Source: a virus
Strand: one strand, 5' to 3'
Length of the DNA: 26,837 bases
Virus record (IMG/VR): IMGVR_UViG_3300050121_000115
Span: 1 to 26,837 of that record
Of this stretch, positions 1,227-26,837 are shown one piece after another. Numbering within the stretch: the stretch's first letter is position 1; the number at the start of each line of letters is the position of its first letter. The notes below the pieces were generated by a model, which was not told the origin of the DNA, ran no database searches, and saw nothing but the letters and a program-made list of their open reading frames with translations. Position numbers and translations under genes: made by a program.

Positions 1227-1475
1227 ATGACCGCACATACCACCAACTTTCTTTTCAAGGGCGTCGACTACTTTGTAGCGATGCTCGACCATGGCGGCGT
1301 TCGCATTGGCTTGGTATCCAACTACGCAACCGATTTCCCGGCGGATCACGAAATGTTCGAAATGGTAGTCAAGTGCGGTAATTCGGGTGACGAGGGGGCT
1401 GTCGAACAACTCTCCGATGAAATCCATTCGATCCACTTGCAGGGCGGTGACTGCCGCGTGCTGCTGACCGCCTAA
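1227..1475 (+). CDS. Hypothetical small acidic protein, 82 residues
   Basis: The start ATG 1227 is chosen because GGAG (1214-1217) lies 9 bases upstream; an in-frame ATG at 1164 would fall inside the promoter-like sequence and lacks a ribosome site. The product (MTAHTTNFLFKGVDYFV...) is acidic, with alternating strand-like segments and a C-terminal segment DEIHSIHLQGGDCRVLLTA. No domain is recognised. It is a monocistronic-looking gene, with a putative promoter before it and a terminator-like hairpin after it at 1493. Confidence 0.7.
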   Translation: MTAHTTNFLFKGVDYFVAMLDHGGVRIGLVSNYATDFPADHEMFEMVVKCGNSGDEGAVEQLSDEIHSIHLQGGDCRVLLTA

Positions 1476-1492
1476 CCAACCCCGCCCACCAC

Positions 1493-1513
1493 AAGCCCCT
1501 TAACTGGGGCTTT
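1493..1513 (+). terminator. Rho-independent-like terminator
   Basis: AAGCCCC (1493-1499), loop TTAACT, GGGGCTT (1506-1512), then only one further T. A perfect 7-bp stem placed 18 bases after a stop codon supports a terminator, though the T-tract is very short. Confidence 0.5.
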
Positions 1514-1542
1514 GGACGTACCACCAGCAGGAGAAAGTCAGC

Positions 1543-1749
1543 ATGGCGATCACCCAGATCTACTACCCGTCAAACGGTTCGATCCTCGTCATCAAGCCGA
1601 TGTGCGATGCCACTGTGAACGAGCTTGTTCTCGCTCAGCGGTTCGCCATCAACACCGGGGCATTCGACACCATGCGCAACATTCTGGCTGAGTTGGGTGC
1701 CCGCGCCGCACTGGCCTTCGACGCCCTGCCACAGAACAAGCTGCACTAA
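1543..1749 (+). CDS. Hypothetical protein, 68 residues
   Basis: ATG 1543 is preceded by AGGAG (1529-1533) at a spacing of 9, a good ribosome site. The product begins MAITQIYYPSNGSIL and continues with a mostly helical, alanine-rich C-terminal half (residues 27-62). No signal peptide, membrane segment or known motif is visible. It stands 30 bases before the ParB-like gene and is probably in the same transcript, downstream of the hairpin at 1493. Function unknown. Confidence 0.7.
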   Translation: MAITQIYYPSNGSILVIKPMCDATVNELVLAQRFAINTGAFDTMRNILAELGARAALAFDALPQNKLH

Positions 1750-1779
1750 ATCCAATCTCAGAACCAAAGGATCACCAGC

Positions 1780-2781
1780 ATGGCCAAATCATTCCGCGAT
1801 ATGACCCGCGACGGCGACTCGAAGACCGGCGTCGAGCCCACTATCAAGCGCACCGACTCGGGTCTGTTTATCCGCCGCAAGAACATCCATGTCCGGGGAG
1901 ACTTCAATCGTCGTTTCCCACGGCAAGAGCTGACCGATCATATCCGCAGCATGGCCGATACCATCAAAGCGGAAGTGGAGAGCGGCGCCAAAGAGACGCG
2001 CATCCCCAAGCTGTACGTGATGGTGCGCGAGGATGGTGGTGTGTGGGCGTGCGATGGTCATTGCCGCCTGAACTCGTACGATCTGGCTGCCGAGGAAGGC
2101 GCCCCGGTCGAATGGATCGGCATCGAGCCATTTACGGGAACCCTGGCCGAGGCCAAGGCATACACAATCAATTCGGACTCGCAGCTGCACAAGACCCCCT
2201 ATGAGCGTGCGGCTGACTTCAAAGACCTGCGCGATGATCCTCAATATTTCATCGACGGCAAGCCGCTGACCACCACTCAGATCGCCGTTCTGACCAACTT
2301 CAAGCGCCAGTACGTCGAGCAGTTGCTCAAGGTGGCAGACGCCCCGGAAGACGTGAAAGAAGCCGTCCTCAATGGCGACATCGCTGCCGGTCTCGCCGAT
2401 GATCTGATCCGCGCTCATGGTGATGATGCCAGCGCCGTGATCAAGACTGCGGTAGCCACGGCCAAGAGTCAGGGCAAGAAGGCCGCTACCAAGGCCACGG
2501 TTCAGGGGCGTCCGATCCCTCGTGCCCTGGCTGACGATCTGAGCACCGTGGCAATGCAATTGCGCGACAGCCTTCCGCCTGAAACCAAGCAGGCCGTCCA
2601 GTCCTTCCGCGATGGCGACGACAACGTCCAGGTGACCATCGACATCCGTAGCCTGAACCGCCTGCTGGCCCTTCAGGACGAGATCGACCGCGTACGCCAG
2701 GATCAGGCCGACAAGGCCTCAAAGAAGGCCGCAGCGGAGTGGCGCGCGCGCAATGCCGAGGAGGAATCTGAGCATGCGTAA
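1780..2781 (+). CDS. ParB-like (ParB/Srx fold) DNA-binding protein
   Basis: The 333-residue product has the layout of a phage ParB-like protein. Residues 75-103 carry strands followed by CDGHCRLNSYDLA, the equivalent of the ParB box II motif (usually D/E-G-x-R-R). Residues 163-186 (TTTQIAVLTNFKRQYVEQLL) form a helix-turn-helix, followed by a helical domain, a lysine/alanine-rich linker (225-245) and a long charged C-terminal helix (290-333). In chromosomal ParB this fold binds CTP and slides on DNA; phage members include DNA nucleases and transcription factors. There is no ParA gene in the window, so plasmid-like partitioning is not supported. AAAGG (1766-1770) precedes the start. It overlaps the next gene by eight bases. 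Confidence 0.85.
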   Translation: MAKSFRDMTRDGDSKTGVEPTIKRTDSGLFIRRKNIHVRGDFNRRFPRQELTDHIRSMADTIKAEVESGAKETRIPKLYVMVREDGGVWACDGHCRLNSYDLAAEEGAPVEWIGIEPFTGTLAEAKAYTINSDSQLHKTPYERAADFKDLRDDPQYFIDGKPLTTTQIAVLTNFKRQYVEQLLKVADAPEDVKEAVLNGDIAAGLADDLIRAHGDDASAVIKTAVATAKSQGKKAATKATVQGRPIPRALADDLSTVAMQLRDSLPPETKQAVQSFRDGDDNVQVTIDIRSLNRLLALQDEIDRVRQDQADKASKKAAAEWRARNAEEESEHA

Positions 2782-2989
2782 GTCTGGTATCTGGGGGGTG
2801 CTGGCCGCGCTCGGCAGCATGGTCGGCTTTAGCAGCCTCGATAAATTCGGTCCAGCCAAGAAAGCCAAGCGAAAGCATGTTTCATCTCCAAGCGAACAGG
2901 CACAAACCGCAGCTATCACAGCTGCTCAAGAAAAGCGAGCCCGCCGCGCAGAGCGTAACCGGGCCAATGAGGACCGCAAGCATGACTGA
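2774..2989 (+). CDS. Small basic protein with hydrophobic N-terminus
   Basis: ATG 2774 lies inside the end of the ParB-like gene and has AGGA (2762-2765) 8 bases upstream; an upstream in-frame ATG at 2753 is less well placed. The 71-residue product starts MRKSGIWGVLAALGSMVGF, a short hydrophobic stretch that could be a membrane anchor or uncleaved signal, and then becomes strongly basic (KKAKRKH, then KRARRAERNR). The hydrophobic-then-basic plan suggests a membrane-associated, nucleic-acid-binding or chaperone-like peptide, but I recognise no family. It overlaps the next start by eight bases, so ParB-like, this protein and the zinc-ribbon protein are likely translationally coupled. Confidence 0.65.
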   Translation: MRKSGIWGVLAALGSMVGFSSLDKFGPAKKAKRKHVSSPSEQAQTAAITAAQEKRARRAERNRANEDRKHD

Positions 2990-3857
2990 CAAGAAGTTTG
3001 ATCTTCGGACCTCCGAGGGCGGTCGCGGGTACATCGCCCACCTGTTCGAGACGCAGCTAAAGCGCCATGACTTCCGCACCTACATCAAGGAGCGCCTGGC
3101 CGCCGACTTCGCTTGCGCGCTGTCCGAGTTCATCGCGACCATGCAGCCGCACGGTCAGCACATTGACACGGTAGCGAAGTTCAAGTTCGACACGCTGGTG
3201 GAACACAGCAAGCGGCAAGAGCGAGACATCGCCTTGCTGCGGGCGGAACTCAATCAGATATGCCTGTACGAAAACAGCACCGTGTGGCACTGGCAGCATG
3301 ACGGTGAAGACTTTCTGGAGAGCCTGACGTGCCCGGTGGTGATCCCAGCTGCCCAGCTACGCGAACTGCTGAGCAAGAAGCTGACCACCGATAAGATGGG
3401 CAAGCCATTCACCTACAGTTCGACCCAGGCTACCAACTGCGCCGGGTGCGGCAAGTACAAGCACACGCCGTTGCGCGTTGACGGCATGGATGGGTATGTC
3501 TGCCTGACCTGCATCGACACTCGCCTGGAAGAACTGCTCGCCGCAGAATCTGCCCGAGACTGCGTAAAAGACTGGGATGGGTGCGAGCAGGTTGCTGACC
3601 TTCCTGCCGTTCACGAGGCCCTGGAAGCGTTCTCAGGCGATCCGACTGGCGATGCTGGCGTGCTGGTCGTTAAGGCTGTCGTCGATGCCCTGGCTGGCGG
3701 ATACATCGCCCTGACCCCAGCCGAGCTGCAATCAGGTCATGACCGGGTGCGCTGGGCGGAAGGGCTGATCCGTCAGCTTCCAGAGCATCATGACGGGCGC
3801 AACTCATGGCTGATGAATTATGGTCAGGCAGACAAGGGTGGAGATGGTCATGAATAG
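2982..3857 (+). CDS. Zinc-ribbon-containing hypothetical protein
   Basis: Start ATG 2982 is chosen over the upstream in-frame ATG 2877 because TGAGGA (2968-2973) lies 8 bases ahead and it overlaps the preceding stop only slightly. The 291-residue protein has an N-terminal helical region (residues 1-95, with a likely coiled coil at 64-92) and a treble-clef or zinc-ribbon pattern C153-x2-C156-x17-C174-x2-C177. The C-terminal 110 residues are helical, with no recognised domain. The zinc site may bind nucleic acid or simply stabilise the fold. I cannot name a family. The last eight bases overlap the following DUF1643 gene. Confidence 0.75.
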   Translation: MTDKKFDLRTSEGGRGYIAHLFETQLKRHDFRTYIKERLAADFACALSEFIATMQPHGQHIDTVAKFKFDTLVEHSKRQERDIALLRAELNQICLYENSTVWHWQHDGEDFLESLTCPVVIPAAQLRELLSKKLTTDKMGKPFTYSSTQATNCAGCGKYKHTPLRVDGMDGYVCLTCIDTRLEELLAAESARDCVKDWDGCEQVADLPAVHEALEAFSGDPTGDAGVLVVKAVVDALAGGYIALTPAELQSGHDRVRWAEGLIRQLPEHHDGRNSWLMNYGQADKGGDGHE

Positions 3858-4371
3858 CGCAGTGATCAGCCCGTGCGGCCAATACCGGTATCGCTTGGAC
3901 CGAGAATGCGAGCCTATGTTAAGGCTGGCTCCGGCAGAGGTCTTGAAGGCGCCGACTTTCGCTTACTTCGGAATCAATCCCTCTACAGCTGACGCTGATC
4001 TTGACGACGCCACCGTTCGAAAATGGCGCGGATTCACTGAGCGCAACGGCGGTGACCATTTCATTGTCGGAAACGTGTTCAGCTACCGCGCCACCGACGT
4101 GAAACTGGTTGGCAAAGTGCCGTTCCCTCAAGGTCCGCAGCACTTCATGCACTTGGATCAGATCATCGCCGAGGCCGACGTGCTGGTGCCTTGCTGGGGT
4201 GGTCGCGACAAAGTGCCAAAGCACCTGCGTGAACAGCTCGACCTGCTGCTCGCGTGGCTGCACCGAAGCGGCAAACCGGTGCTGCACTTCGGCACGACCG
4301 ATGGGGGTGATCCGAAACATCCACTGTTCCTGCCGTACACGACACCGCTAATCCCTCTGGTTAGCGTGTGA
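3850..4371 (+). CDS. DUF1643 family protein
   Basis: The 173-residue product shows the DUF1643 pattern: a beta-strand PTFAYFGINPSTAD (residues 35-48), then DDATVRKWRGF (52-62), a second strand FIVGNVFSYRATD (71-83), and a Gly-rich WGGRDK segment followed by the helix carrying a H-x-G-K-P-V-L strand. These features suggest a uracil-DNA-glycosylase-like or nucleotide-binding alpha/beta fold, but the activity of DUF1643 is not established to my knowledge. ATG 3850 with GGAG (3840-3843) at spacing 6 is preferred over ATG 3844 and ATG 3820. It closes a coupled run of genes; the next gene lies after a strong hairpin at 4392. Confidence 0.85.
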   Translation: MNSAVISPCGQYRYRLDRECEPMLRLAPAEVLKAPTFAYFGINPSTADADLDDATVRKWRGFTERNGGDHFIVGNVFSYRATDVKLVGKVPFPQGPQHFMHLDQIIAEADVLVPCWGGRDKVPKHLREQLDLLLAWLHRSGKPVLHFGTTDGGDPKHPLFLPYTTPLIPLVSV

Positions 4372-4391
4372 AAGCCCAACTCCCCGCCTAC

Positions 4392-4415
4392 TGCCAGTGC
4401 CTGCTGGCACTGGCA
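4392..4415 (+). other. Perfect 10-bp stem-loop between genes
   Basis: TGCCAGTGCC (4392-4401), loop TGCT, GGCACTGGCA (4406-4415). There is no T-tract, so it is not a textbook terminator. It lies 20 bases after the DUF1643 stop and 23 bases before the next start. It could be an RNA-processing or stability hairpin, or a weak terminator. Confidence 0.6.
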
Positions 4416-4438
4416 CAACTGATTTGATCAGGTGATTT

Positions 4439-4735
4439 ATGAGTGAAGAATTCAAACTTGACGGATCAACTCCAGCGCGCCCAGCTCTTCGCTGCTACAG
4501 CGTTGGGGACCATGATTACGTTGCTGCCACGAGTGAGGACGAGGCGCGTCGAATCCTTGCCGAAATGAACGGGGATGACGTTTCCAGCTACGAAGATTGG
4601 GATGTCGAGCTAACCAGCGATAAAACGCTCGATATGCAGTGGGTTGACGAAGACCCGCCGCACCCTGAAGTCGGATGCCTTCGTGACTGGCTGGCAGAAG
4701 CAACAGAGCCAACCTATCTCAATGGGACGGAATAG
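4439..4735 (+). CDS. Hypothetical acidic protein, 98 residues
   Basis: ATG 4439 has AGGTGA (4430-4435) just upstream. The product is strongly acidic, with a strand-helix start (RCYSVGDHDYVAA, residues 18-30, then the helix SEDEARRILAEMN) and a C-terminal acidic part rich in Asp, Glu and Pro. This strand-helix arrangement resembles small phage proteins of unknown role; I can name no family. The next gene begins two bases after the stop, so the two are one operon. Its acidity might fit a DNA mimic, but that is speculation without a structural match. Confidence 0.7.
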   Translation: MSEEFKLDGSTPARPALRCYSVGDHDYVAATSEDEARRILAEMNGDDVSSYEDWDVELTSDKTLDMQWVDEDPPHPEVGCLRDWLAEATEPTYLNGTE

Positions 4736-4737
4736 CC

Positions 4738-5382
4738 ATGACCAACAACCAAACGATTGATGGCGTGCTGGTATCGCGTGAGCTGCTGGAGAACTGCGCC
4801 AGCTACATGGAAGGATCGGCCAGCGGTAAAGTGCAGTTGTGGGTTAGGAAACTGCGCGCCCTGCTGGATGCGCCTGCGCCGCGAGCAGAATTCAAGAAAA
4901 TTGAAATGGCGCACATCGTTAATGCGCTTGACGATGTTCGCGGAAAGCCAGTGCTTACCAGCCTTCAATGCCATGACTTGGCACGGGCGCTGAATGACCG
5001 GCTTCTTTCACCGTTGCAGCTCCTGTCCCTTCCTGCCGAATACGCGTCAGCCGCCAAGCCACAGGGCGAGCATACCGCAGTGAGTTTCCTGGAGCGGATG
5101 CTGAAGGGCTCAGGAGATGATCGCTTGGCGGCATGGCAGGGAGAAATGGCCATGCTTCTGGAGCACGTCGGCGCCCAGTCTCAGATTGAGCGGCAACACA
5201 TCAAGGGCATGATCGAGGCTGCTGGCAGTGAATACGCTATCATGATCGACCCTGAAAACGGCCACTTCGGTTGGACGTTCAAACGTCATCCTGACGGCCA
5301 ATGGGTATCCAGTCGAAAGGCAACCGAATCAGAAATGTACTCGGCTCGGCAGTACGCCAAAACCACCGGGCGGGATGTTTGA
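4738..5382 (+). CDS. Hypothetical phage protein, 214 residues
   Basis: The N-terminal segment (DGVLVSRELLENCASYM, residues 8-24) followed by a helix ending in LRALLDAPAP resembles a widespread class of uncharacterised small proteins in phages of Pseudomonas and related hosts, often with a variable C-terminus. The rest is helical up to about residue 160, and the C-terminal 55 residues (from SEYAIMIDPENGHFGWTFKR) look like a separate small beta domain. No catalytic motif is visible. The gene lies between two other unknown genes with gaps of two bases on each side, so all three are likely cotranscribed. Confidence 0.75.
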   Translation: MTNNQTIDGVLVSRELLENCASYMEGSASGKVQLWVRKLRALLDAPAPRAEFKKIEMAHIVNALDDVRGKPVLTSLQCHDLARALNDRLLSPLQLLSLPAEYASAAKPQGEHTAVSFLERMLKGSGDDRLAAWQGEMAMLLEHVGAQSQIERQHIKGMIEAAGSEYAIMIDPENGHFGWTFKRHPDGQWVSSRKATESEMYSARQYAKTTGRDV

Positions 5383-5384
5383 CT

Positions 5385-6173
5385 ATGACCAGCAATGATA
5401 TGAAAACGATAGCAACTCGCCTGCGCGAATATTTGAAGAACCGACATCATGTCAATCCAATGTCGGAACGTTTCAAAACGCTGATCATTGAAGCGGCAGA
5501 CGCATTTTCTGCGCTCGCGAAAGCCCAGCCCCAGGGCGATCCGATGGCGTATCGCTACAAGGAAGGTCATGCAGCGTGGGAGAGCGAAAAGCCCTGGGAG
5601 CCGACAACGCTAGCTCATGGCGCCGTACTTCTTGAGCGAAAGGCGCTAGCTGCGAACGGAACATTCAGGGCTAACGAGCTGGAATACTACTCGGCACTCA
5701 CAGTCGAACCGCTCTACGCCGAGCAGCCCGCGCTGGTTAGCGACCTTGACGATGTTGATTGGAAGGCGATCAAAAAGGCGGCAGATGAGTCGGCCTGGAT
5801 GCCGCCCGAGTACATGCGTAACGAGTGGGTGTCCGATGTGTGTGCATTCTTGCGCGATCCTCGGGAAGAGCAGGCTGTGCCCGCTGAGATTCTTGCGTCA
5901 AAGCTGATCGACTCTTGGGTAGTCGCGCACTGTCGCCGGGTGCCATGGTCGAAGGCTATTGAGATAACCTCCGTTGTCACGGGGATGGCGCCTGAAGAGA
6001 AGAGCCGCTTGCTGGCACTTGATGATGATCAGCCAGTATCGTCGGGACTCCCTGATGTAGATGTCCTGGCGCAAATCATCCGTAAGGTCGATGGCTCTAA
6101 TTCTCTCGGAGCCGGTGCTTTGGCAGAATCGATCCTGTCCGAGATCTCGCATCTGAATGGTGTCAAGCCATGA
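5385..6173 (+). CDS. Hypothetical phage protein, 262 residues
   Basis: ATG 5385 lies two bases after the upstream stop; the frame stays open upstream to 5301 but that would overlap the previous gene heavily. The product has an N-terminal helical part (MTSNDMKTIATRLREYLKN), a central region containing HAAWESEKPWEP and EYYSALTVEPLYAEQPA (about residues 60-115), a style common in uncharacterised proteins of Pseudomonas and Burkholderia phages, and a C-terminal helical part rich in Asp and Ser. No known domain. It overlaps the LytTR gene by four bases (ATGA), implying translational coupling with that regulator. Confidence 0.75.
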   Translation: MTSNDMKTIATRLREYLKNRHHVNPMSERFKTLIIEAADAFSALAKAQPQGDPMAYRYKEGHAAWESEKPWEPTTLAHGAVLLERKALAANGTFRANELEYYSALTVEPLYAEQPALVSDLDDVDWKAIKKAADESAWMPPEYMRNEWVSDVCAFLRDPREEQAVPAEILASKLIDSWVVAHCRRVPWSKAIEITSVVTGMAPEEKSRLLALDDDQPVSSGLPDVDVLAQIIRKVDGSNSLGAGALAESILSEISHLNGVKP

Positions 6174-6526
6174 AGCGCGCAACGCTGCATCAGAATACGG
6201 GGAACAAGATCACCAAGTCCGTGGACGCTTGCGACGTCACGCACTTCATGGCTGACCACAAGTATGTTTCGGTGAACTGGCCTGGCGGTGAACTGATCAT
6301 GCGCGGGAGGCTCAAGGATCTTGAGGTGGAATTCGCGCCGGACTTTATCGTCGTGCATCGCTCGTACCTGGTTCGATCCTCATTGCTGATCGCTGTCCGG
6401 CACGTCGCGGTATCCAATACCTATGAGGTTGACGTGCAGGGAGTAGCGGAGCCGCTGGTCATCTCTCGCCGCAAGATCCACTCCTTGCGCGCACTCATCG
6501 CTGAGCGAAACGCTGCTACTGCCTGA
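6170..6526 (+). CDS. Stand-alone LytTR-type DNA-binding regulator
   Basis: The 118-residue product is essentially one LytTR domain (about residues 19-112): an opening strand DVTHFMADHKYVSV, the helix GRLKDLEVEF (46-55), the conserved segment FIVVHRSYLVR (59-69), and the closing strand and helix PLVISRRKIHSLRALI. LytTR domains (AlgR, AgrA, LytR families) bind direct repeats and usually follow a receiver domain; there is no receiver or membrane domain here. The gene is the last before a terminator-like hairpin and the terminase gene, so a role in switching on late genes is an attractive inference, not shown. It overlaps the previous stop as ATGA. Confidence 0.85.
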   Translation: MKRATLHQNTGNKITKSVDACDVTHFMADHKYVSVNWPGGELIMRGRLKDLEVEFAPDFIVVHRSYLVRSSLLIAVRHVAVSNTYEVDVQGVAEPLVISRRKIHSLRALIAERNAATA

Positions 6527-6532
6527 ATCGGA

Positions 6533-6554
6533 AAGCCCTTTGCGAGAGGGGCTT
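6533..6554 (+). terminator. Hairpin after the LytTR gene, possible terminator
   Basis: AAGCCCTT (6533-6540), a 6-base loop and AGGGGCTT (6547-6554) pair with one G-T wobble. It sits 6 bases after the stop and overlaps the octamer CGGAAAGC (6529-6536) that also opens other gaps in this window. No T-tract follows. Confidence 0.45.
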
Positions 6555-6570
6555 GGCCGAGCTGTAACTT

Positions 6571-6593: not shown

Positions 6594-6674
6594 ACACGCA
6601 TGGCAGCGCAATTTGAATGCAGTAACGAATCGACAGAGTCGGCGGGGTTGAGGTAATTGGCCGCTCTATCGCTT

Positions 6675-8180
6675 ATGAGTGATCCGCGCTGGCCTGCTTT
6701 CGTCGAGCGCTATGCCTTCAACGCCTATCGGTTCGCCATCGAAGTCTGCTCGATGGAGCCGACCTGGCAGCAGCGCGACCTCCTGAATAGCGTATCTCCC
6801 TTCGGTTCGCGTACATCGGTGTCGTCTGGTCACGGGACGGGAAAAACTGCCAGCTTCGGTGTGCTCTGCCTTTGGCACTTGACCTGCTACGCCAAGTCCA
6901 ACACCTACCTGACGGCGCCGAAGCTGAAGACCCTTCAGGAAGGTGTGTGGCAAGAGATCGGTAACCGCAAGGATGGCATTCTCAAAGGCCCGCACGCTTG
7001 GATCTTCGATTACATCGTGATCGAGGCCGAGAAGGTCTACATCAAGGGTTATAAGTCGCAGTGGTTCGTATCATGCCGCACGGCGCCTCAGGGTCGCCCG
7101 GAGGCCCTGGCCGGTACGCACAACCAGTACCTGCTGTGGCTCGCAGATGAGGCATCAGGCATCCCGACTGCCAACTTCAACGTGATCACAGGTGCGCTGT
7201 CTGACCACCGCAACCGATTTGCCATAGCCAGCCAGCCAACGCGCCCGAGCGGATTCTTCTACGAGACGCACCACAAGTTTTCGACGCGCAACAAAGGCCG
7301 GTGGAACGCGCTGACGTTCAACTCTGAGATGTCGCCTATCGTCTCGGTGCAATTCATCCTCGACAAGCGCCTGGAGTACGGCGGCAAGGACTCGGCAGAA
7401 TACCAGGTCAAGGTTCTGGGTATCTTCCCCACGAACAGCGATAAGTACATGCTCGGGCGCAGCACTATCGAGAAGTGCATCGGCGCGCCTGCGGTGATCA
7501 AGGCGGGGGAGTTCTACGGCCATCTCGTAGTCGTGGACGTCGCGGCAGCCGCACACCGAGACAAAACCGTAGCCTTCCACTGCAAGGTTATCGGTACGGG
7601 CGACCGGATGGAACCAGATCCCCGGCGTATGGACGCGGTCGGTATCCCACTATTCACAAACGGCCTGGACTGGACCCCCTCGGCGCGCATCATCGCCGAC
7701 TATGTCGCCAGGCTGTCCAACTGCACCGTAGTTGTCGATGCCCACGGCATGGGCGTGCAGTTCGCCAAGCGCCTTGAAGAGTTCGGTGTCGAGCACGTCA
7801 TCAAAGCCTACTGGGGCACCAAAAACTTTTCGAAGCGCTACAAGGATCGTTTCTTCAATAAGCGGGCACAGTGCGCGATCCACGCCAAAGAGGCCATTGA
7901 GGATGGTCGCGTTACTCTGACAGACCAGTATCAGGCTGACCTGCTGGATCAGGGCAGCCGGATACCGTTCGGCATGGACGATCATGGCCGATGGAGGATT
8001 GCTGGGAAAGATGACATGGCGAAAGACGGCATACCTTCCCCCGACCTTTTCGATACTGTTTGCATGGCTTTTCTTGAGAATGTCAGCTATATCCAGTGCG
8101 ATTCGATACCGGGTGACAGCGAGGTCGGAGAGGCAGTAGGGCGTATCGCGGACGCCCTGGCAGGTGTTGAGCTTGCATAA
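6675..8180 (+). CDS. terL: Terminase large subunit
   Basis: This is the ATP-driven DNA packaging motor and headful or site-specific nuclease, acting at the portal vertex. In the 501-residue product the Walker A motif is SGHGTGKT (51-58), Walker B is LLWLADEA with D158 and the catalytic E159, and the coupling motif is SQPT (186-189). The RuvC-like nuclease half shows the expected acidic residues: D288 in LVVVDVA, D355 in VVVDAHGMG, and D457/D460 in SPDLFD. Length is typical. The start is uncertain: ATG 6675 lacks a ribosome site, while TTG 6657 has GAGGT only three bases ahead; the frame closes at 6654-6656. No small terminase subunit is recognisable in the window. Confidence 0.95.
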   Translation: MSDPRWPAFVERYAFNAYRFAIEVCSMEPTWQQRDLLNSVSPFGSRTSVSSGHGTGKTASFGVLCLWHLTCYAKSNTYLTAPKLKTLQEGVWQEIGNRKDGILKGPHAWIFDYIVIEAEKVYIKGYKSQWFVSCRTAPQGRPEALAGTHNQYLLWLADEASGIPTANFNVITGALSDHRNRFAIASQPTRPSGFFYETHHKFSTRNKGRWNALTFNSEMSPIVSVQFILDKRLEYGGKDSAEYQVKVLGIFPTNSDKYMLGRSTIEKCIGAPAVIKAGEFYGHLVVVDVAAAAHRDKTVAFHCKVIGTGDRMEPDPRRMDAVGIPLFTNGLDWTPSARIIADYVARLSNCTVVVDAHGMGVQFAKRLEEFGVEHVIKAYWGTKNFSKRYKDRFFNKRAQCAIHAKEAIEDGRVTLTDQYQADLLDQGSRIPFGMDDHGRWRIAGKDDMAKDGIPSPDLFDTVCMAFLENVSYIQCDSIPGDSEVGEAVGRIADALAGVELA

Positions 8181-9364: not shown

Positions 9365-9394
9365 GGCGCGGAGGTCATCGGAAACCGCCGCGCC
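9365..9394 (+). other. GC-rich hairpin after the secreted-protein gene
   Basis: GGCGCGG (9365-9371) and CCGCGCC (9388-9394) form a 7-bp stem with a 16-base loop, six bases after the stop. No T-tract follows. It begins with CGGAAGGC (9360-9367), a one-mismatch copy of the recurring CGGAAAGC octamer. Confidence 0.35.
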
Positions 9395-9406
9395 GGTAGC
9401 GCCATC

Positions 9407-9426
9407 GCCCCATTCACAATCGGGGC
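9407..9426 (+). other. Small hairpin touching the next start codon
   Basis: GCCCC (9407-9411) can pair with GGGGC (9422-9426), which ends directly at the ATG of the next gene. The G-run is also the only ribosome-site-like sequence there, so pairing could dampen translation. The stem is only 5 bp and may be chance. Confidence 0.25.
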
Positions 9427-10820: not shown

Positions 10821-11315
10821 ATGCTGAACAACGTACCGATACAAGTGAACCGGATCACGCGGCAGATAGTGCTACGTCATCCTAACGCGATGCCTTGCAC
10901 TGTGCAGAGGAAGACTGTCAATCGTACTGCTGGCACGTCCGAGGGTGGCCTGCCGACTCTTGGGGGGGCCGGGGTTCTGGACAGTGAAGACGAGGCTGAC
11001 TTCACTTACTCGGACCTTGGTGCCGCAAGCATCCTGTTCGCCGACATCTATACGCCGGATATCGGCAACATGTCAGACGACGACAGCGTCCCGATCTATG
11101 CAGAAGGGATGATCCAGGCCCAGGTCGAATGCGTTGTTGATCCTACCAACTCGGCCTATTTCTTCGCCGACAAGCATGACCTCGTCATTGCCACGCCTGG
11201 CGCTGGAATCATCATCCCTTACGAGGTTGTGGGTGTCACTTCGAAGGGCAACATCCCGCCATATACGCGCCTGTTATTGCTCAACCCACGGGAAGACTTG
11301 CTGGTGGGTATCTGA
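10821..11315 (+). CDS. Unrecognised protein next to portal, likely structural
   Basis: The 164-residue product begins MLNNVPIQVNRITRQIVL and is rich in beta-strand-like segments, with an acidic loop (SEDEADFTYSDLG, about residues 54-66) and a C-terminal part (IPYEVVGVTSKGNIPPYTRLLLLNPR) that looks like an Ig- or barrel-type fold. It could be a head-tail joining or tail-completion protein, judging from size, composition and position just before the portal gene. No family is recognised. It includes a G7 run at 10962-10968 within Gly codons. The stop is followed immediately by the CGGAAAGC octamer. Confidence 0.65.
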   Translation: MLNNVPIQVNRITRQIVLRHPNAMPCTVQRKTVNRTAGTSEGGLPTLGGAGVLDSEDEADFTYSDLGAASILFADIYTPDIGNMSDDDSVPIYAEGMIQAQVECVVDPTNSAYFFADKHDLVIATPGAGIIIPYEVVGVTSKGNIPPYTRLLLLNPREDLLVGI

Positions 11316-11316
11316 T

Positions 11317-11324
11317 CGGAAAGC
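11317..11324 (+). repeat. CGGAAAGC octamer at start of pre-portal gap
   Basis: CGGAAAGC begins one base after the stop of the gene ending at 11315. The same octamer opens the gaps before terminase (6529), before the long fibre gene (20708) and before the last gene (26293). The 79-base gap that follows has no good hairpin beyond a GCG-CTAA-CGC turn. Confidence 0.5.
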
Positions 11325-11394
11325 GCTAACGCAACAATGGTCGGCCAGTCCCTAAGATGGTCCAAACGAATCCGTATTTTGCGCTTGGAATTTT

Positions 11395-12981
11395 ATGGCT
11401 GACTCGACTGAAAGTGGCATGTGGGCGCGGGCCAAGAAACTGGCGCAGGCGCTGGTGGATGGTGACCGGGCCATTGCCCAGGTTGATTCTGCCGATACGA
11501 TGATGGGCTATGACACGGTCAGCGTGTCGATGCTGCTGGGTTCTGGCGACCGCGTTGCCCGCTCCCGCGTAATGATCTATGAGAAGTTCGCGCGCATGAT
11601 GGAAGACCCCATCATTGCAACTGCATTGCGTTTGCACGTCACTCAGGCGCTCGGAGGCCATGAGACCACCGGGGATACCGTCTTCATCGAGGTGAAGCCT
11701 GGTAGTGAGAAATACGCGAAGTATGTGAATGATCTCAAGCTTAACTGCGCGCCTATTTTCAATCGCGAGGCGCATGGTGTTTCGTTCAACGCGGCTGGCT
11801 TCGGAGATTCCTACGCCAGGGTGTACCTGAAGGACGGCGAGGGCCTGATCGATATCAGCTGCAACGAGATGGTGTACCCGCCCATGGTGCAGCCATATGA
11901 GAAGGGCAACGCCACCGTGGGCTATGTAGTTTCTAGCGGTGAGAAGCAGCAGGTGCGCCTGCTGCCAACCCAGATGGCACGTATGAAAATGCCTCGCCTT
12001 CTGTGGATTCCGCAGATGAAGGCTATCGAGAAAGCCTACCGCTACCACCTCGAAGAGGACGACATCCAGAATCTTCCAGCCATGCCAGCCATGGTCGGCG
12101 GATCGTTTCTGTACGAGGCCGAGGAGCCATATGAGCGTCTTCGCGCCTCGCTGCTTGGCCTGGTAGGCCAGCGCATCCTCGGCACCATCGACGAGAACCT
12201 GATCACTGTAGAGACCGAAGGCATGTCGCTCCAGCAGCGCAAGACATTCATGGCCAGCATCAACAAGATGCTGACCAAGTCGAAGGAAGTCGCCGAGAAG
12301 GCGGTGCGCGAAAACAAGCCGGTCACGACGCGTCAGTATCACGTTCTCCCGGTCAGCGGCCAGAAGCAGGTCACCAGCATCTCTAGCTTCCAAGGCGCCA
12401 CGGCAACCAACGGCATGACCATCGACGACGTGATGCTCCAAGCCAAGCTGCTGGCGGGCGCACTCGGCATCGACTTGGCCCTGCTTGGCTTCTCTGATCA
12501 GTTGTCGGGTGGGCTCGGGGATGGTGGCTTCTTCCGTGTATCCGCTCAGGCAGCCGAGCGCAGCCGAATGATCCGGACCGCGCTGTCCTCATTCTTCCAC
12601 TATCTGATTGACCTACACACATGGTCGAAGTGGGGATTTGTGTGGGAGGACGGCGACCGCCCATACGAGATCAATTTCTACGGCTCGATCAGCGCCCTGG
12701 AAGCTGAGAATACCGAGACTCACGAGCGGAAGATCAATGGCAGTGCAGTGCTGATGACTGTTCTGGATTCGATGCGAAATCTCGGGCTGCCAGAGGACAC
12801 CATGGTCAGCCTGCTGTCTTCCGAGATGGGCTTCGATGAGGAAGACGCGAAGAAGATCGCCCGAGGCATCAAGGAGGCGAAGCCGCCCCAGTCAATGATG
12901 GGTGGTGGCTTTGGTGACGATAGTTTCAGTACGTCGCCTGTCTCCAAGCAGGTGAATGAAGAGGAAGCGAGTAATGCGTAA
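11395..12981 (+). CDS. Portal protein
   Basis: The 528-residue product is the dodecameric portal through which DNA enters the head. Support: size; an N-terminal helical part followed by YEKFARMMEDPIIATALRLH (about residues 62-81), a characteristic portal 'double helix' segment; a middle beta region with NAAGFGDSYARVYL; a long stem helix with LLGLVGQRILGTIDENLITVE; and a C-terminal wing/clip region with GISxxLLG-like wording (GALGIDLALLGFSDQL), ending in a glycine- and acid-rich tail. Position after terL and before a probable prohead protease fits. ATG 11395 has CTTGGAA upstream as a weak ribosome site. It overlaps the protease gene by eight bases. Confidence 0.85.
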   Translation: MADSTESGMWARAKKLAQALVDGDRAIAQVDSADTMMGYDTVSVSMLLGSGDRVARSRVMIYEKFARMMEDPIIATALRLHVTQALGGHETTGDTVFIEVKPGSEKYAKYVNDLKLNCAPIFNREAHGVSFNAAGFGDSYARVYLKDGEGLIDISCNEMVYPPMVQPYEKGNATVGYVVSSGEKQQVRLLPTQMARMKMPRLLWIPQMKAIEKAYRYHLEEDDIQNLPAMPAMVGGSFLYEAEEPYERLRASLLGLVGQRILGTIDENLITVETEGMSLQQRKTFMASINKMLTKSKEVAEKAVRENKPVTTRQYHVLPVSGQKQVTSISSFQGATATNGMTIDDVMLQAKLLAGALGIDLALLGFSDQLSGGLGDGGFFRVSAQAAERSRMIRTALSSFFHYLIDLHTWSKWGFVWEDGDRPYEINFYGSISALEAENTETHERKINGSAVLMTVLDSMRNLGLPEDTMVSLLSSEMGFDEEDAKKIARGIKEAKPPQSMMGGGFGDDSFSTSPVSKQVNEEEASNA

Positions 12982-13810
12982 GACCACCGGCCTGATCAGA
13001 TTCAACGTTGCTGAGCGCGACCGGATGTTCCGAGGCCAGGATCGCAGCTTCGATATTCCTTCGGTCATGCGTGTGATCAACGGGCGCTCCGTGCAGGAGC
13101 GGGTCAAGAGCGGCGACATGTTCGGCTACTTCGGCCACTGGCCTCGCGAGAAGTTTGGGCTCGATCCTGCGGAGGGCGGCATTCTCAACGGCAAACAGTT
13201 TTCGCTTGAGCCCGCCATACGCACGACATCGATCAAGGCGCACCCTAATGGTGATATCGAGCATGAAATCGAATTTCTCGACACCTCGTCTGGCCGTATT
13301 GCAGCTCGCGTCTACGGCAGCAAAGCCTATGGGTTCTCGTCGGCGATTCGCGCGCGTGCGGTTAATGGTCGCGACCTTGCCACCGACTTTTTCGGCTTTG
13401 ATCTGGTCAAAGAGCCGAACTACAACACGAATCGCGGTTATGTGCTCGATAGCGTGAGCGGCGAAGATATCGCGATCCTCGACGAGGTCGCCGACCGCGA
13501 TGCATTGTTCGAGACCGTCAACGAGATGCTGGACGTTAAGCAGAGGGAAATCGACAGTATGAAGGCGATCCTTGAGAGCCTGACGGCTGAGAATACCGAG
13601 CTGATCAGTATGCTGTCGAAGAAAACTGGCAAGACTGAAGCAATTCTCGACGGCGTCCTCGATGTGGGGCGCCTGCCGATTCACGGCAACTCGGCGCTGT
13701 TCGATAACGCGCATGACTTTCTCACTGTAGACCTGCCGCGAATCCAGCGGCCTCGCGAGGAGCCCGTCCCTACCCCCCAAGCTGATGCCTTCTTTGAGCG
13801 CCTGCGTTAA
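12974..13810 (+). CDS. Probable prohead protease with coiled-coil tail
   Basis: ATG 12974 has GAGGAA (12961-12966) 8 bases upstream and lies within the portal stop region; ATG 12956 is an alternative. In the 278-residue product, residues 48-150 match the layout of phage capsid maturation proteases: GYFGHWP (51-57), EHEIEFLDTSSG with H97, then KAYGFSSAIRA with S122/S123 as candidate nucleophile, and FFGFDLVKEPNYNTNRGYVLD (139-159). The H-then-S spacing suits the herpes-assemblin-like fold, but catalytic residues are inferred. Residues 184-217 are a heptad-like coiled coil, possibly a scaffold segment. No separate scaffold or major capsid gene follows, which is unusual. Confidence 0.7.
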   Translation: MRKTTGLIRFNVAERDRMFRGQDRSFDIPSVMRVINGRSVQERVKSGDMFGYFGHWPREKFGLDPAEGGILNGKQFSLEPAIRTTSIKAHPNGDIEHEIEFLDTSSGRIAARVYGSKAYGFSSAIRARAVNGRDLATDFFGFDLVKEPNYNTNRGYVLDSVSGEDIAILDEVADRDALFETVNEMLDVKQREIDSMKAILESLTAENTELISMLSKKTGKTEAILDGVLDVGRLPIHGNSALFDNAHDFLTVDLPRIQRPREEPVPTPQADAFFERLR

Positions 13811-13812
13811 TC

Positions 13813-16467
13813 ATGGCCTTTCAGTCAGATGATCAGGGCTTTCTCCAGGGCCTGGGCAACTCGCAGAGCGTTGCCGCCTATGGTCGCCAGCTCGAAGTCC
13901 TGCGCGCTATCAACGCCGGTATCGAGTCTATCGACCGCAAGCTGGATATTCAAAACAAGGCATCCTCCGGGGTATCTCCGGCAGATCCGCGCCGCTCGCG
14001 AGGTAGCGGGGTGCCTGTACCAGCTTCTAACGAGGCAGGTATCGGGGCGTCTCGCAATTCGTTATCCAGGCCGTCCGACATCACGCAGGGATCGCCTGAT
14101 TCGAAAAGACAGCCTTCCGCACCAGCTGTGCCGCGTAAGAGCCGTGAGGCGCTTACAGAGCGTGGAGCGAACGGAAGATTTAAGTCGAAAGGCGGATCGC
14201 CTGACAAAAAGAAATCGCCGAAAGATGACGATGGGGATGATGTAGATAACAGAAGGGCGCCTAGGCATAGTGCTGGACGACTAGCTTCTGCTGTCGAAAG
14301 CATGAAGGGTGGCCTGTCAGGTATTACATCTGGCAGTGAGCGAATCGATCCGACAATTGCCGCAGGCAAGGAAATTAAGGATGCCTTGTCGCCCTTGATG
14401 AAGCCTGTCAAGTCACTGCTCGGCGGAATGTTCTCTCGTGGAGGCGCCACCGACGAAGAGAAGGCTGAGCGCAAAGTCTCAGTGCCGTGGTATCGCCGCA
14501 TCTGGAGCGAGCTGCGCGAGGGCAATAAGAAGAATGGTGGAGGAGGCGGCGGCCTAATGGGCGCTCTGATGGGCGCGCTCGCTGCTCTTCCTTCGCTCCT
14601 TGGCGGCAAGCTGTCCGGCTTACTGAAGCATATCCCTGGCGCGGGCTTTGTCGGTGGCGTCATGCGCCGTGGCGGAAGCCTGATCGGCAGTATCGCTAGG
14701 CGCGCCAAGAACCTTGTTGGGCGCCTGTTCGGTCGCAATGCTGCTGGCTCTGAGGCGGGGGCAGCGGCCAAGGGTGGCCGATGGGGACGCATTGGTCGCC
14801 TTGGCAGCAAAGTAGGAAATTTCCTCGGCAAGGTCGGTAAATATTCTGGGCTAAGCAAAGTAGCCAAGCTTGGGGGCGGATTATTAAAACGTATTCCGAT
14901 GCTCGGCAACTTGATCACGGCTGTCACGGGGATGGCTTCCATCCTTGATCCCAACGCGACGAAGGAAGAGAAGTTCCATGGTGGAGGCAGTGCGGTTGGC
15001 GCTCTAGCAGGGGGCGCCCTTGGATCGCTCCTTGGCCCTATTGGCACCGTCCTCGGCGGTATGCTTGGGGAGAAGGTGGGGGGCATGGTCGGCGACTGGC
15101 TGGCTACACTCGATTGGTCGAAGATCGGCGAAAAAATATCCGGTGCCTGGGACAACGTCGTCAATGTTTTCAGTGATGCCGGTAAGCTGGCTTCTGACGC
15201 CGCGTCAGCGGTATTCAAATCGATCTCCGATGCCGGATCAAAACTCAGCAGCATGGTTTCTGACGTCTACAGCTCGGTTAAAAACTGGCTTGGCGATAAA
15301 TTCGGCGGCATGGTTGAAGGAGCCAAGGATCTCGCTAAGAGCGCTGTAGACACTGCAAAGAGCACGGCAAGCTATGTCGGCGACAAGGCCGGAAGTGCTT
15401 ATACGGCAGCCAAAGAAGCCGTATCAAGCGCCGCAACAAAAGTTTCGGACGGCTTCAGCTCGGCGAAAGACGCAGCAGTCGTCCAGGGCGGTCGCCTGCT
15501 CGGCTCTCTTGATAGCTCTTATCGACACAAAGAATCGTTCGGCGGCATTGCCGGTGGATCTGCTCTAGGCACCTATGGCAGCTATACCAACGACGAAGCC
15601 AGCCGAATCCGTGAACTCAAACAGGGCGGCTATAACACCTCGGCAAACGTCAAGGGAGGCATGTCGGCGGCTACTCAGAAAAAGATCACGGATGCAGCGA
15701 TTGCGAGGGGTCTTGATCCGCGAGAAATGCTGGCGATGGCTGCAATGGAGAGTGGTGGCAATTCGAATGCAATCTCCTCAACTGGCGCTATCGGCACATA
15801 CCAGTTCACCGGGCGCACAGCCACGGGCGTAGGCATCACAAACCGTTTTGACGAGGATCAAAATATCGCGGGCGGTATGAAGCTTGCGCTGACAAATCAG
15901 CAGTATCTGAAGTCACGGGGGCTGCCAGTCACTGCGGCCAACCTTTACATGATGCACCAGCTCGGGCCTTCCTCGGCAGAAGAGCTGATTCTCGGACAGA
16001 AGAACGGCAAAAAAATCAGCGATCTATCGGCCAGTACCCAGGCCGCAGTGAAACTGAACTATGGCAGCGGCTCGACCACGGCTGACGAGTACATCACGAA
16101 GAACGCCAAGGCTCTGGATTCGCGCTATGCCAGTGTCGTAGGTGGCGCATCTGGAAATTCGTCGCCTAGCCCTCTTGTTACCGGGGCAACGCCAGGGGCT
16201 CCTGGATCGACAGCGCTATCGGTTCCGCCGCTGTTGCAGCCGATGTCGGCAAACAATCCCATGGCTGTTGCTTCGAGTAACGCGGCGCCAACCGTGACTA
16301 ACAAAGCGCCATCGACTGCGGCAACACCACCGGAAAAGATCGCATCCGATGCGAGCAAAACTGTGGGCGTAATGCGTATGGAGCAGCCTGTCGGCCAGGA
16401 TGTTTCGGAGCGGCAGATCGCGGCCTTGGTTACGGGCGGCATCGGAAATCAAGGCGGGACGTACTAG
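13813..16467 (+). CDS. Tape-measure-like protein with SLT transglycosylase domain
   Basis: The 884-residue product has an N-terminal coiled-coil part (residues 1-50), a disordered Ser/Pro/Arg-rich stretch (50-160), hydrophobic glycine-rich segments that could cross a membrane (about 241-280, 354-380 and 390-428), an Ala/Lys-rich helical repeat region (about 470-560), and a soluble lytic transglycosylase domain (about 617-770). The catalytic glutamate is probably E646 in MAAMESGGNSNA, followed by STGAIGTYQF. The domain cuts peptidoglycan during DNA entry. The membrane-prone segments suit a tape measure ejected into the host envelope; a baseplate-hub transglycosylase is the alternative. There is no clear ribosome site; the start lies two bases after the protease stop. 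Confidence 0.85.
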   Translation: MAFQSDDQGFLQGLGNSQSVAAYGRQLEVLRAINAGIESIDRKLDIQNKASSGVSPADPRRSRGSGVPVPASNEAGIGASRNSLSRPSDITQGSPDSKRQPSAPAVPRKSREALTERGANGRFKSKGGSPDKKKSPKDDDGDDVDNRRAPRHSAGRLASAVESMKGGLSGITSGSERIDPTIAAGKEIKDALSPLMKPVKSLLGGMFSRGGATDEEKAERKVSVPWYRRIWSELREGNKKNGGGGGGLMGALMGALAALPSLLGGKLSGLLKHIPGAGFVGGVMRRGGSLIGSIARRAKNLVGRLFGRNAAGSEAGAAAKGGRWGRIGRLGSKVGNFLGKVGKYSGLSKVAKLGGGLLKRIPMLGNLITAVTGMASILDPNATKEEKFHGGGSAVGALAGGALGSLLGPIGTVLGGMLGEKVGGMVGDWLATLDWSKIGEKISGAWDNVVNVFSDAGKLASDAASAVFKSISDAGSKLSSMVSDVYSSVKNWLGDKFGGMVEGAKDLAKSAVDTAKSTASYVGDKAGSAYTAAKEAVSSAATKVSDGFSSAKDAAVVQGGRLLGSLDSSYRHKESFGGIAGGSALGTYGSYTNDEASRIRELKQGGYNTSANVKGGMSAATQKKITDAAIARGLDPREMLAMAAMESGGNSNAISSTGAIGTYQFTGRTATGVGITNRFDEDQNIAGGMKLALTNQQYLKSRGLPVTAANLYMMHQLGPSSAEELILGQKNGKKISDLSASTQAAVKLNYGSGSTTADEYITKNAKALDSRYASVVGGASGNSSPSPLVTGATPGAPGSTALSVPPLLQPMSANNPMAVASSNAAPTVTNKAPSTAATPPEKIASDASKTVGVMRMEQPVGQDVSERQIAALVTGGIGNQGGTY

Positions 16468-16782
16468 ATGGCAAGCACTACTATCAACGCGAGCAGGATC
16501 ATGCAGATGATCGCGCATTGGCTTGATACGCCCGTGAATGGCTATCTCGGATCGACCTACGGCGCACCCGTTGAAGAGTTGATTCAGAAGCCTAGAAACT
16601 CTGCGCTTGCGAACGCTTTCCTTGCAAAAATGAAGGCGGACTTGCCGATCCTAGCGGCCATGCCAGCCGGATCGGTATCGATCTACTTTCAAGATGTAAC
16701 GGATCGGAATGATGCGAAAAAATTGATTATTCAGGTGGGCGATGTAACGCTGACCGTTGACGAGCTGAGGAACGTTAGTTGA
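16468..16782 (+). CDS. Small baseplate-associated protein
   Basis: The 104-residue product has an N-terminal helix followed by HWLDTPVNGYLGSTYG (residues 17-32), a wording that I associate with small phage proteins encoded directly upstream of baseplate J genes, and a C-terminal strand-rich part ending in IIQVGDVTLTVDELRNVS. It begins directly after the upstream TAG and overlaps the baseplate J start by four bases. The position argues for a baseplate wedge component, perhaps a gp25-class role, but the specific family is not certain. Confidence 0.65.
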   Translation: MASTTINASRIMQMIAHWLDTPVNGYLGSTYGAPVEELIQKPRNSALANAFLAKMKADLPILAAMPAGSVSIYFQDVTDRNDAKKLIIQVGDVTLTVDELRNVS

Positions 16783-18982: not shown

Positions 18983-20718
18983 TGCCGTTGGTCCAGCGCA
19001 AGTCGAGCGAACTGCTCACTATCAATCGGGCATCTCCAGGTGCGTACTTTGATCAATCTGGCGTTCTTCGACAGGCCATTGCGAATCGCCTCCGTCGCTC
19101 GTTCGACCCGGTCACCCATGCATTTCAGGGAATCCTGATCGAAGAATCCCGCACCAACCTGATCAAGGCATCTAGCGCGCTCGACGATGCTACGTGGTCG
19201 GGCACGAACATGACCGTGAATGCGAATATCGCTTCGGCTCCCGATGGCACGACCACCGCCGACAAGATGATTTCGTCGGTCGCCACGTCCGTAACACACA
19301 GCGTGGGCTTGCAAAGTTCTGGATCGGTCGCGGTAACAACAGGTGTTGCGGTAACGTATTCGGCCTTCGTCAAGGCTGCTGAACTGACTTTCTGCCTCCT
19401 GTCCTTCGACTCTGCGGATAGCACGACGCCGTGGGGGGCTACTCCAGGATCATGGTTCAACTTGAGCACCGGGACGGTGATTTCGGTCATCGGCACCGTG
19501 TCGAATGCCACTATCACGGCTCTCTCAAACGGCTGGTTCCGGGTATCAATGACCGCTGTTCCCGTCGCATCAGGCCCCGTCAGGCCCCGTATTATTCCTG
19601 CCAATGCTGCAAGCCCGACGTTCGCGGCCAACGTCGGTGATGGTTTGTACGCATGGGGCGTCCAGGTAGAAATTGGCGCGTCTATGACGAGTTTCATTCC
19701 AACTATCAGCGCAGCTGTGACTCGCGCCGCTGACGTCGTCGGGATGCCAGTCGATCTCAAGCTCACGCGCTCGAATATTCTGGCACCTAGCAATGATTTC
19801 ACTGGGTGGACGGCAGGCACGGGCGTAACTCTGTCGCCAGCATCTATCCCTGGTCCCAGTGGCCTAGCATCGAGCGCCGTGATGCCATCTGGTTTCGGCC
19901 TGACGGTTGCAACGCCAGTGCTATCGTCCTTGCTTTCCGCCTATACGTTTTCCGTATTTGTGAAGGCTTCGGCAGGCCTTGTGCAGTTGAAGCTGTCGGG
20001 GGCAGCCTATACGGCGCCCAGGACCGCGACCTTCGATCTTGCTGCTCTATCAGTCACGTCTACCACCGATGAGGCCGCTATCGGAGCACCGCTCAACGGC
20101 TGGGTACGGATATCGATCACGGCCACGCCAAACGTTGCGTCGGCAGTTGGATCATTGGCCATCCTCAATAACGGCACGTCATCTTTGACGATCGGCCTAT
20201 TCGGCGCGCAGCTTGAAAGCTTTCCCCAGGCTACCGCTTACATGCCAACGACTTCGGCGGCTACCAGCGCCACGTCGTACTTCAACTGGTACGACATGAT
20301 CAAGGGCACCTTGGTCGGAAGCATGACGTCATCCCCCGGCGCATGCCTGCTGTCACTCGACGATGGCACCAACTCAATCACAATCAGCCAGGATGCAACG
20401 GGGCTTGTTTCGCTGACCATTACGTCGGCAGGCATCGTGCAGGTCATTCTTACTGGATCTGTAGTAGCTGCTGGCCTTCCGCTGGGCATCGCAGCTTGCT
20501 GGTCGTATGACACAAACTCAATTGACGTCAGCCTCGGCGTCAATGGCACTGTTTTCACGGATAGCCCATTCACACGGCTCGTCTTTGTAGACCCTGTCTC
20601 TTTGCGTCTGGGCAACTTTGGCGGAACGACTTCATTCATCAACAGCTATATACGGCGCGTTCAGTATTTCAAGACCGCCTTACCTAGCCAGATCGCTGCA
20701 CTTTCATCGGAAAGCTAA
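18982..20718 (+). CDS. Fibre with two head-spike/CBM-like modules
   Basis: ATG 18982 overlaps the preceding TGA and has GGAG (18969-18972) 9 bases ahead; GTG 18967 is an alternative. After an N-terminal part (LLTINRASPGAYFDQSG ... RTNLI) there are two copies of the concanavalin-like phage fibre module. The first ends in YAWGVQVEIGASMTSFIPT followed by TRAAD (about residues 60-248); the second ends in FGAQLESFPQATAYMPT (about 262-424). Each has an NGWxRxS strand and a TYSAFVKAA/TFSVFVKAS strand. A C-terminal LamG-like part (about 430-578) follows. These modules bind surface sugars in tail fibres and head spikes. The attachment site on the virion is inferred from position. Confidence 0.8.
   Translation: MPLVQRKSSELLTINRASPGAYFDQSGVLRQAIANRLRRSFDPVTHAFQGILIEESRTNLIKASSALDDATWSGTNMTVNANIASAPDGTTTADKMISSVATSVTHSVGLQSSGSVAVTTGVAVTYSAFVKAAELTFCLLSFDSADSTTPWGATPGSWFNLSTGTVISVIGTVSNATITALSNGWFRVSMTAVPVASGPVRPRIIPANAASPTFAANVGDGLYAWGVQVEIGASMTSFIPTISAAVTRAADVVGMPVDLKLTRSNILAPSNDFTGWTAGTGVTLSPASIPGPSGLASSAVMPSGFGLTVATPVLSSLLSAYTFSVFVKASAGLVQLKLSGAAYTAPRTATFDLAALSVTSTTDEAAIGAPLNGWVRISITATPNVASAVGSLAILNNGTSSLTIGLFGAQLESFPQATAYMPTTSAATSATSYFNWYDMIKGTLVGSMTSSPGACLLSLDDGTNSITISQDATGLVSLTITSAGIVQVILTGSVVAAGLPLGIAACWSYDTNSIDVSLGVNGTVFTDSPFTRLVFVDPVSLRLGNFGGTTSFINSYIRRVQYFKTALPSQIAALSSES
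19571..19590 (+). repeat. 10-bp exact tandem duplication inside the fibre gene
   Basis: CAGGCCCCGT occurs twice in direct succession within the first carbohydrate-binding module. Gain or loss of one copy would shift the frame. Confidence 0.75.
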
Positions 20719-20727
20719 GCGGTTAGC
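20708..20727 (+). other. CGGAAAGC octamer and overlapping hairpin
   Basis: CGGAAAGC (20708-20715) forms the last two and a half codons before the stop of the fibre gene. GCTAA (20714-20718), loop GCGG, TTAGC (20723-20727) forms a 5-bp hairpin that includes the stop. It lies 57 bases before the next start. Confidence 0.4.
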
Positions 20728-20783
20728 GCTATGTGGCGCAGGCCAGAATGGCGAAAATGCGACTCCAGAATTGAGGACTACTG

Positions 20784-26291: not shown

Positions 26292-26292
26292 C

Positions 26293-26322
26293 CGGAAAGC
26301 AGCCAAGGAAGGCGCCCCCTTC
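26293..26322 (+). other. CGGAAAGC octamer and hairpin before the last gene
   Basis: CGGAAAGC (26293-26300) begins one base after the stop of the CBM-type gene. GAAGG (26308-26312), loop CGCCC, CCTTC (26318-26322) forms a 5-bp hairpin just after it. No T-tract follows, so the terminator status is uncertain. Confidence 0.4.
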
Positions 26323-26363
26323 ACGCGGTAAGGTAGATGCTACAAAAATCGGAATAAGACCCC

Positions 26364-26837
26364 ATGAGTAGCGGCGATCTCAACCCCCTCAAAGAAGCAC
26401 TCGGAACGTACCTCGGTGCGTGGTATGCGGGCGTTTATGGCGACACGCCGAGCGTAATCGAATTCGCTGCGCGTGGATATGAGCGATCTGTGCTTTGGGC
26501 TCCAGGTCGCATGGTTGATTATGCCGAGGAAATGCTGAAGCTCTACCAGAAGAACAGCAACGGCGAGAAAGGTGCGAACTCCCTGCTACCGGTGGTGCTT
26601 ATCGCGCTGGCCAAGGAATACACGCCAACGCCTGGAGAAGCCGGTGGCAAGCAGGTCGAGCGCCAGATTGTCAGTATCGTAGAAGGTGGTTCAGCTTACG
26701 GATACCGGCAGGCTATGGCCGACAAGCGCGCACAAATCGTCATCTTCGGTGCCGAGGAAATGAGTGCGAATAGCCTGGCAGCTCAACTGGGGCTGTACCT
26801 GGGTGCAATCCCGAATCGTCGGTTCACAGCAAGTCAC
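26364..26837 (+). CDS. Unrecognised protein, truncated by window end
   Basis: ATG 26364 opens a frame of at least 158 codons that is still open at the last base. The visible part begins MSSGDLNPLKEALGTYLGAW and is largely helical, with a repeated-looking pair (GTYLGAWYAGVYGDTP near the start and LGLYLGAIPNRR near the end). Composition and position suggest a tail or neck protein, but no family is recognised. It follows a 72-base gap, so it may start a further transcription unit containing the missing head and tail genes. Confidence 0.7.
   Translation, partial: MSSGDLNPLKEALGTYLGAWYAGVYGDTPSVIEFAARGYERSVLWAPGRMVDYAEEMLKLYQKNSNGEKGANSLLPVVLIALAKEYTPTPGEAGGKQVERQIVSIVEGGSAYGYRQAMADKRAQIVIFGAEEMSANSLAAQLGLYLGAIPNRRFTASH

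Follow-up and report, generated by a model that had tools for sequence, protein, structure and literature searches.

The window analyzed here is a 26,837-nucleotide stretch of an 82,326-base IMG/VR record, from which it differs by one base; the record carries a 127-base terminal repeat and was taken as a complete genome of 82,199 bases (G001). An open reading frame with an ATG start at 6170-6526 (+) encodes a 118-amino-acid LytTR protein and is the sole LytTR gene of both the window and the 82.3-kb record around it. Its start shares an ATGA overlap with the end of the preceding gene (5301-6173, +), through which the two are likely translationally coupled; the 290-amino-acid product of that gene had no Pfam match and no PHROG match below E 0.1. 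Downstream lies terL (6657-8180, +; PHROG 2, 2e-29), encoding a large terminase subunit of the PacB type with 34% identity to PacB of phage P1 and akin also to the terminases of D6, Xanthomonas phage Rb1 and Acinetobacter phage ABMM1. The gene probably begins at the TTG at 6657, in agreement with the start in the relative G399. The small terminase gene, a homologue of Rb1 terS, is located about 15 kb upstream of the left end of the window.

The main genes between 1228 and 6526 all run in the same direction behind a sigma-70-like, predicted early promoter at 1164-1192 (+; -35 TTGCAA, 17 nt, -10 TAGATT). Because of this arrangement, the LytTR gene may be the last of an early operon (1228-6526) driven from this site. 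A near-identical copy of the promoter stretch 1164-1200 is present at 14724 of G001 (window coordinate -13357): both have a -35 of TTGCAA, 17 nt and a -10, repeat TTGC 11 bases on and have the leader ATCGAAACGAAC in common. Similar early-type promoters occur in G399. Within the gene run, about 70 bases at 4376-4443, before the gene at 4439, contain a perfect 10-bp stem (TGCCAGTGCC/GGCACTGGCA) and recur at 91-94% identity in several Pseudomonas phages that otherwise differ (HU1, phiAH14a, PfAn1, TPWB-08); the genes beside the corresponding stretch in two phages are mostly hypothetical.

A Pfam profile search, in which the lack of a domain match would have refuted the original prediction, matched LytTR (PF04397) over residues 17-110 (E 2.2e-12; 47.5 bits against a curated cut-off of 22.6) and found no receiver or other domain in the 118 amino acids, so that the protein is not a LytTR response regulator. 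PHROG 13895 ('transcriptional regulator') was matched at E 4.1e-15, the other PHROG match being 8810. An AlphaFold model built from 13 input sequences had a mean pLDDT of 94.8, strands ordered as in a complete LytTR domain and the ten-strand beta fold of AgrA, and the top 13 Foldseek matches in the PDB were all LytTR structures, including DNA-bound AgrA. The product of 6170-6526 is a complete, free-standing LytTR domain with a predicted fold, which bears out the original prediction of a single domain without a receiver. As no receiver is present, the protein would work without phosphorylation.

The AgrA LytTR domain on DNA (3bs1) has its fold in common with the model (Foldseek E 5e-5, TM 0.67/0.75) but just 17% sequence identity. 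Its DNA-contact residues, as given in the available part of PMC4227749, are R198, N201 and S202; in an alignment made by eye, the window protein has V61 in place of R198 and R64 in place of N201, and its S65 corresponds to S202. Response regulators of the AlgR/YpdB type belong to the same LytTR subgroup and are about 40% identical, but they carry the receiver domain that the window protein lacks. The contact motif reads FIVVHRS in the window protein and FVRIHRN in the host regulators, which leaves two contact positions unlike the AlgR type.

A stand-alone LytTR protein has already been annotated in a Pseudomonas phage, as D3 Orf50. Members of the D3 Orf50 family (PHROG 13895) also consist of a single LytTR domain without a receiver and are about 31-35% identical to the window protein over the aligned length; by its profile match and lack of a receiver, the window protein fits this group. 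In D3, PP9W2 and Haboob, the gene comes after those for RecT/ERF and the YqaJ exonuclease within the early operon and is not beside terL, and a further stand-alone LytTR gene (L008) likewise lies behind recombination genes. In two prophage contigs (L048 and L059, around 5995-6500), D3-type LytTR genes are frameshifted or truncated. In a tree of nine phage and 54 host LytTR domains, a branch with support 80/89 set the phage domains apart; this may argue against the gene having recently been captured from a host, although we are unsure of it given the long branches. Among 390 genomes of one order, 190 had matches, and no close stand-alone relative was seen among the matches listed, all of which lie in frames of at least 239 amino acids, that is, in full regulators. 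A search of a plasmid collection returned eight records, none closer than 44%. Matches in Acinetobacter phage MD-2021a were discarded because they are host genes despite the phage label of the record; the 12 kb concerned (L004) hold ordinary host genes only (argH, hemC, hns), and the label seems wrong there.

The LytTR stop codon (6524-6526) is followed immediately by the box ATCGGAAA at 6527-6534 (+), and then by a predicted -10 (TAACTT, 6565-6570) and a predicted start A at about 6577. The box was first spotted as a common word by reading intergenic stretches and forms part of a putative late-promoter motif, ATCGGAAA-N30-[TC]AnnnT, in which it lies at about -50 to -43, the spacer is fixed at 30 nt and a -35 is missing. 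Further copies on the plus strand precede the portal gene (11315-11358, with CGGAAA from 11317), the tail-fibre gene at 20784 (20706-20749) and the gene at 26364 (26291-26334). The copy at 9377-9420 has its predicted start at the ATG of the 9427 gene, whose mRNA is predicted to be leaderless; the ATG is also the predicted transcription start in the 9427 orthologues of G399, G394 and G402, suggesting leaderless mRNAs there too. A weaker candidate at 16441-16484, where the 13813-16467 gene ends, precedes the 16468 gene and has its predicted start inside it. Repetition of the motif before late genes supports the original placement of the LytTR gene just before terL, at the start of the late unit. 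The terminator-like hairpin proposed between the two genes (stem 6533-6541/6546-6554) did not hold up: it lacks a T run, its folding is not superior to that of shuffled sequences (z -1.1), and it is absent from the picks of a terminator scan and sits in the late-promoter spacer. No Rfam match was found within the window.

The motif was evaluated in two ways. When all 6-mers at each tested distance upstream of TA...T were counted on the late strand, the strongest combination of word and spacing was GGAAAG at 29 in G001 (6 found, 0.16 expected), CGGAAA at 30 in G399 (7 against 0.12) and GGAAAA at 29 in G404 (5 against 0.03), and the same or an overlapping word, likewise placed, in G394 (6 against 0.07). 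CGGAAA-N30-[TC]AnnnT was then counted in 11 genomes, with no selection of sites, and compared with 100 second-order Markov sequences per genome. Counts on the sense strand, on the antisense strand and as the shuffle mean were 10/2/0.39 in G001, 11/1/0.37 in G399, 13/1/0.18 in G394, 7/0/0.10 in Rb1 and 4/0/0.21 in G404. The 49-kb fragment G402 gave 1/0/0.14 and has a GGGAAA variant at the expected place before its 9427-type gene. No excess was found in G398 (1/3/0.78), P1 (0/1/1.20), ABMM1 (1/1/0.70), G405 (1/1/0.63) or G407 (1/2/0.30). The box precedes orthologous genes across phages, for example the portal gene in G001, G399, G394, G402 and G404. In G402 (the record of L171), the TerL match at 36786-37816, in reverse orientation, is interrupted for about 1 kb, in the manner of an intron or insertion.

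From a list of 48 sites in four phages (spacings 28-32), 33 were picked by hand (G001 9/14, G399 7/13, G394 11/13, Rb1 6/8), leaving out mainly sites within genes or without a near gene ahead, and were aligned with two variant sites to give 35 rows. An A was favoured 12 bases on from where the -10 begins, in 23 of these 35 hand-picked aligned sites, and we take it as the predicted transcription start; the preference arises partly because an ATG stands at this point in some sites. An ATG followed by at least 80 open codons falls exactly at the predicted start in 7 of 45 sense sites from the five phages, more than at any other ATG offset between 40 and 99 (runner-up, four sites at offset 71). 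Some late genes are thus predicted to be expressed from leaderless mRNAs.

Which protein reads the late box was considered next. In P1 and D6, the gene order is lpa-pacA-pacB, lpa being the gene for the late promoter activator (described for P1 in the accessible part of PMC10695390), and one sequence search with P1 Lpa found no homologue in G001. A counterpart role for the LytTR protein was therefore attractive: made early, it would bind ATCGGAAA about 45 bases upstream of the late starts and recruit RNA polymerase. P1 Lpa (gene 10) is likewise a small regulator whose gene immediately precedes the terminase genes and a late promoter, and that gene is annotated with a sigma-70 promoter of its own, controlled by C1. 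The LytTR gene occupies the same place as lpa, its stop codon is abutted by the box, and the absence of a -35 from the promoters leads one to expect an activator. The gene is also found near terL in all three clade phages that possess it, 1.9 kb upstream in G399 and about 0.85 kb downstream in G402, and its position is therefore recurrent in the lineage.

The comparison with relatives argues against this role. The box is identical in G394, Rb1 and G404, three of the five box phages, all of which lack a LytTR gene and would have to put another protein on the same box. The LytTR proteins of G001 and G399 share 28% identity, compared with 77% for TerL, and the box is unchanged. It is, moreover, a single box and not the direct repeat usual for LytTR proteins; no second conserved element was present 20-25 bases upstream of the aligned sites in G001 or G399. 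Lpa itself is unrelated in sequence (PHROG 1704), and its sites are 9-bp inverted repeats at -22 (annotation and the accessible part of PMC10695390), as opposed to a box near -45 here.

The full-genome scan for LytTR-type repeat pairs that accompanied the original prediction gave no excess. At up to 0, 1, 2 and 3 mismatches, a scan of the 82-kb sequence for consensus pairs returned 0, 4, 40 and 264, as against 0, 0-4, 23-41 and 242-265 in five shuffles; AlgR-type CCGTTYGTC sites in G001 numbered 0 exact, with no excess at one mismatch. In G399, seven pairs at one mismatch or fewer (about two in shuffles) were set aside because three of them belong to one 21-bp tandem array that is iteron-like. 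This array, four repeats read by eye at 6294-6373 of G399 (the record of L128; reverse orientation), is accompanied by a ParA-like gene adjoining the LytTR gene (12372-13082, reverse orientation, also by eye), and G399 is probably a phage-plasmid. Since no LytTR target site emerged, the argument for a regulator role is the domain itself. With three of five box phages lacking the gene, no LytTR-type double repeat and no enrichment of LytTR sites, the LytTR protein is probably not the reader of the late box. The original proposal that it activates the late genes thus appears unlikely, and the position beside terL on which it was based is not enough to name a late activator.

A better candidate for the reader is an XRE-type helix-turn-helix protein (240-amino-acid frame; Pfam HTH_31, HTH_3), which, among proteins outside the structural genes, is present in all five box phages and in G402. 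In G001 its gene lies about 22 kb upstream, outside the window, and in Rb1, G404 and G407 it stands shortly before terS-terL. The protein occurs as well in G398, G405, G407 and, weakly, ABMM1, all of which lack an excess of the motif, and for this reason we infer its role as reader without asserting it. It could equally be a repressor, which would suit its position in G399 behind one of the early-type promoters (-35 TTGCA).

Action on the host was also weighed. The LytTR protein could occupy or compete for host LytTR sites and so rewire host genes during infection or in the plasmid prophage state, in keeping with its identity of about 40% to the LytTR domains of host response regulators and with the lack of site enrichment in the phage genome; the divergent contact motif and the separate, weakly supported grouping of the phage domains render this improbable. 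That the gene is a passing 'moron' without consequence, retained by accident at a boundary prone to recombination, would fit its absence from G394, Rb1 and G404 and the broken copies in D3-type prophages (L048, L059), but is very unlikely given the intact domain, the confidently predicted fold and the recurrence close to terL in three phages whose neighbouring genes differ.

The explanation we prefer, at roughly even odds, is that the LytTR protein is an accessory early transcription regulator of phage or host promoters. As the final gene of the rightward operon 1228-6526, it would probably be made early, and it would act at those promoters without need of phosphorylation. The late genes would be switched on from a promoter type of their own, the first copy of which begins at the LytTR stop codon, and the more likely reader of the box would be a conserved protein of the phage, such as the XRE-type one.

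The literature searched, which includes the available portions of PMC10695390, PMC8198154, PMC4227749 and PMC4847170, yielded no account of a phage LytTR protein with a late role or of the CGGAAA box. As far as these searches go, the late-promoter class and its spread over the P1-related phages of this group are new. We tentatively propose, with slightly less than even confidence, that this class is shared by the phage with at least four distant relatives, namely Xanthomonas phage Rb1 and three metagenomic phages, that some late genes are leaderless at +1, that a conserved phage-encoded protein, probably the XRE-type one, is the reader, and that the LytTR gene, as a second layer, contributes control specific to the lineage as early expression gives way to late. 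To our knowledge, late switches outside the coliphages are mostly unknown. In all well-studied phages, late genes are under positive control, as stated in the accessible part of PMC10695390. Here, sequence comparison alone yields an exact predicted promoter for a P1-related lineage that includes Rb1, and with two named candidate regulators, the LytTR and XRE-type proteins, its late switch becomes directly testable.
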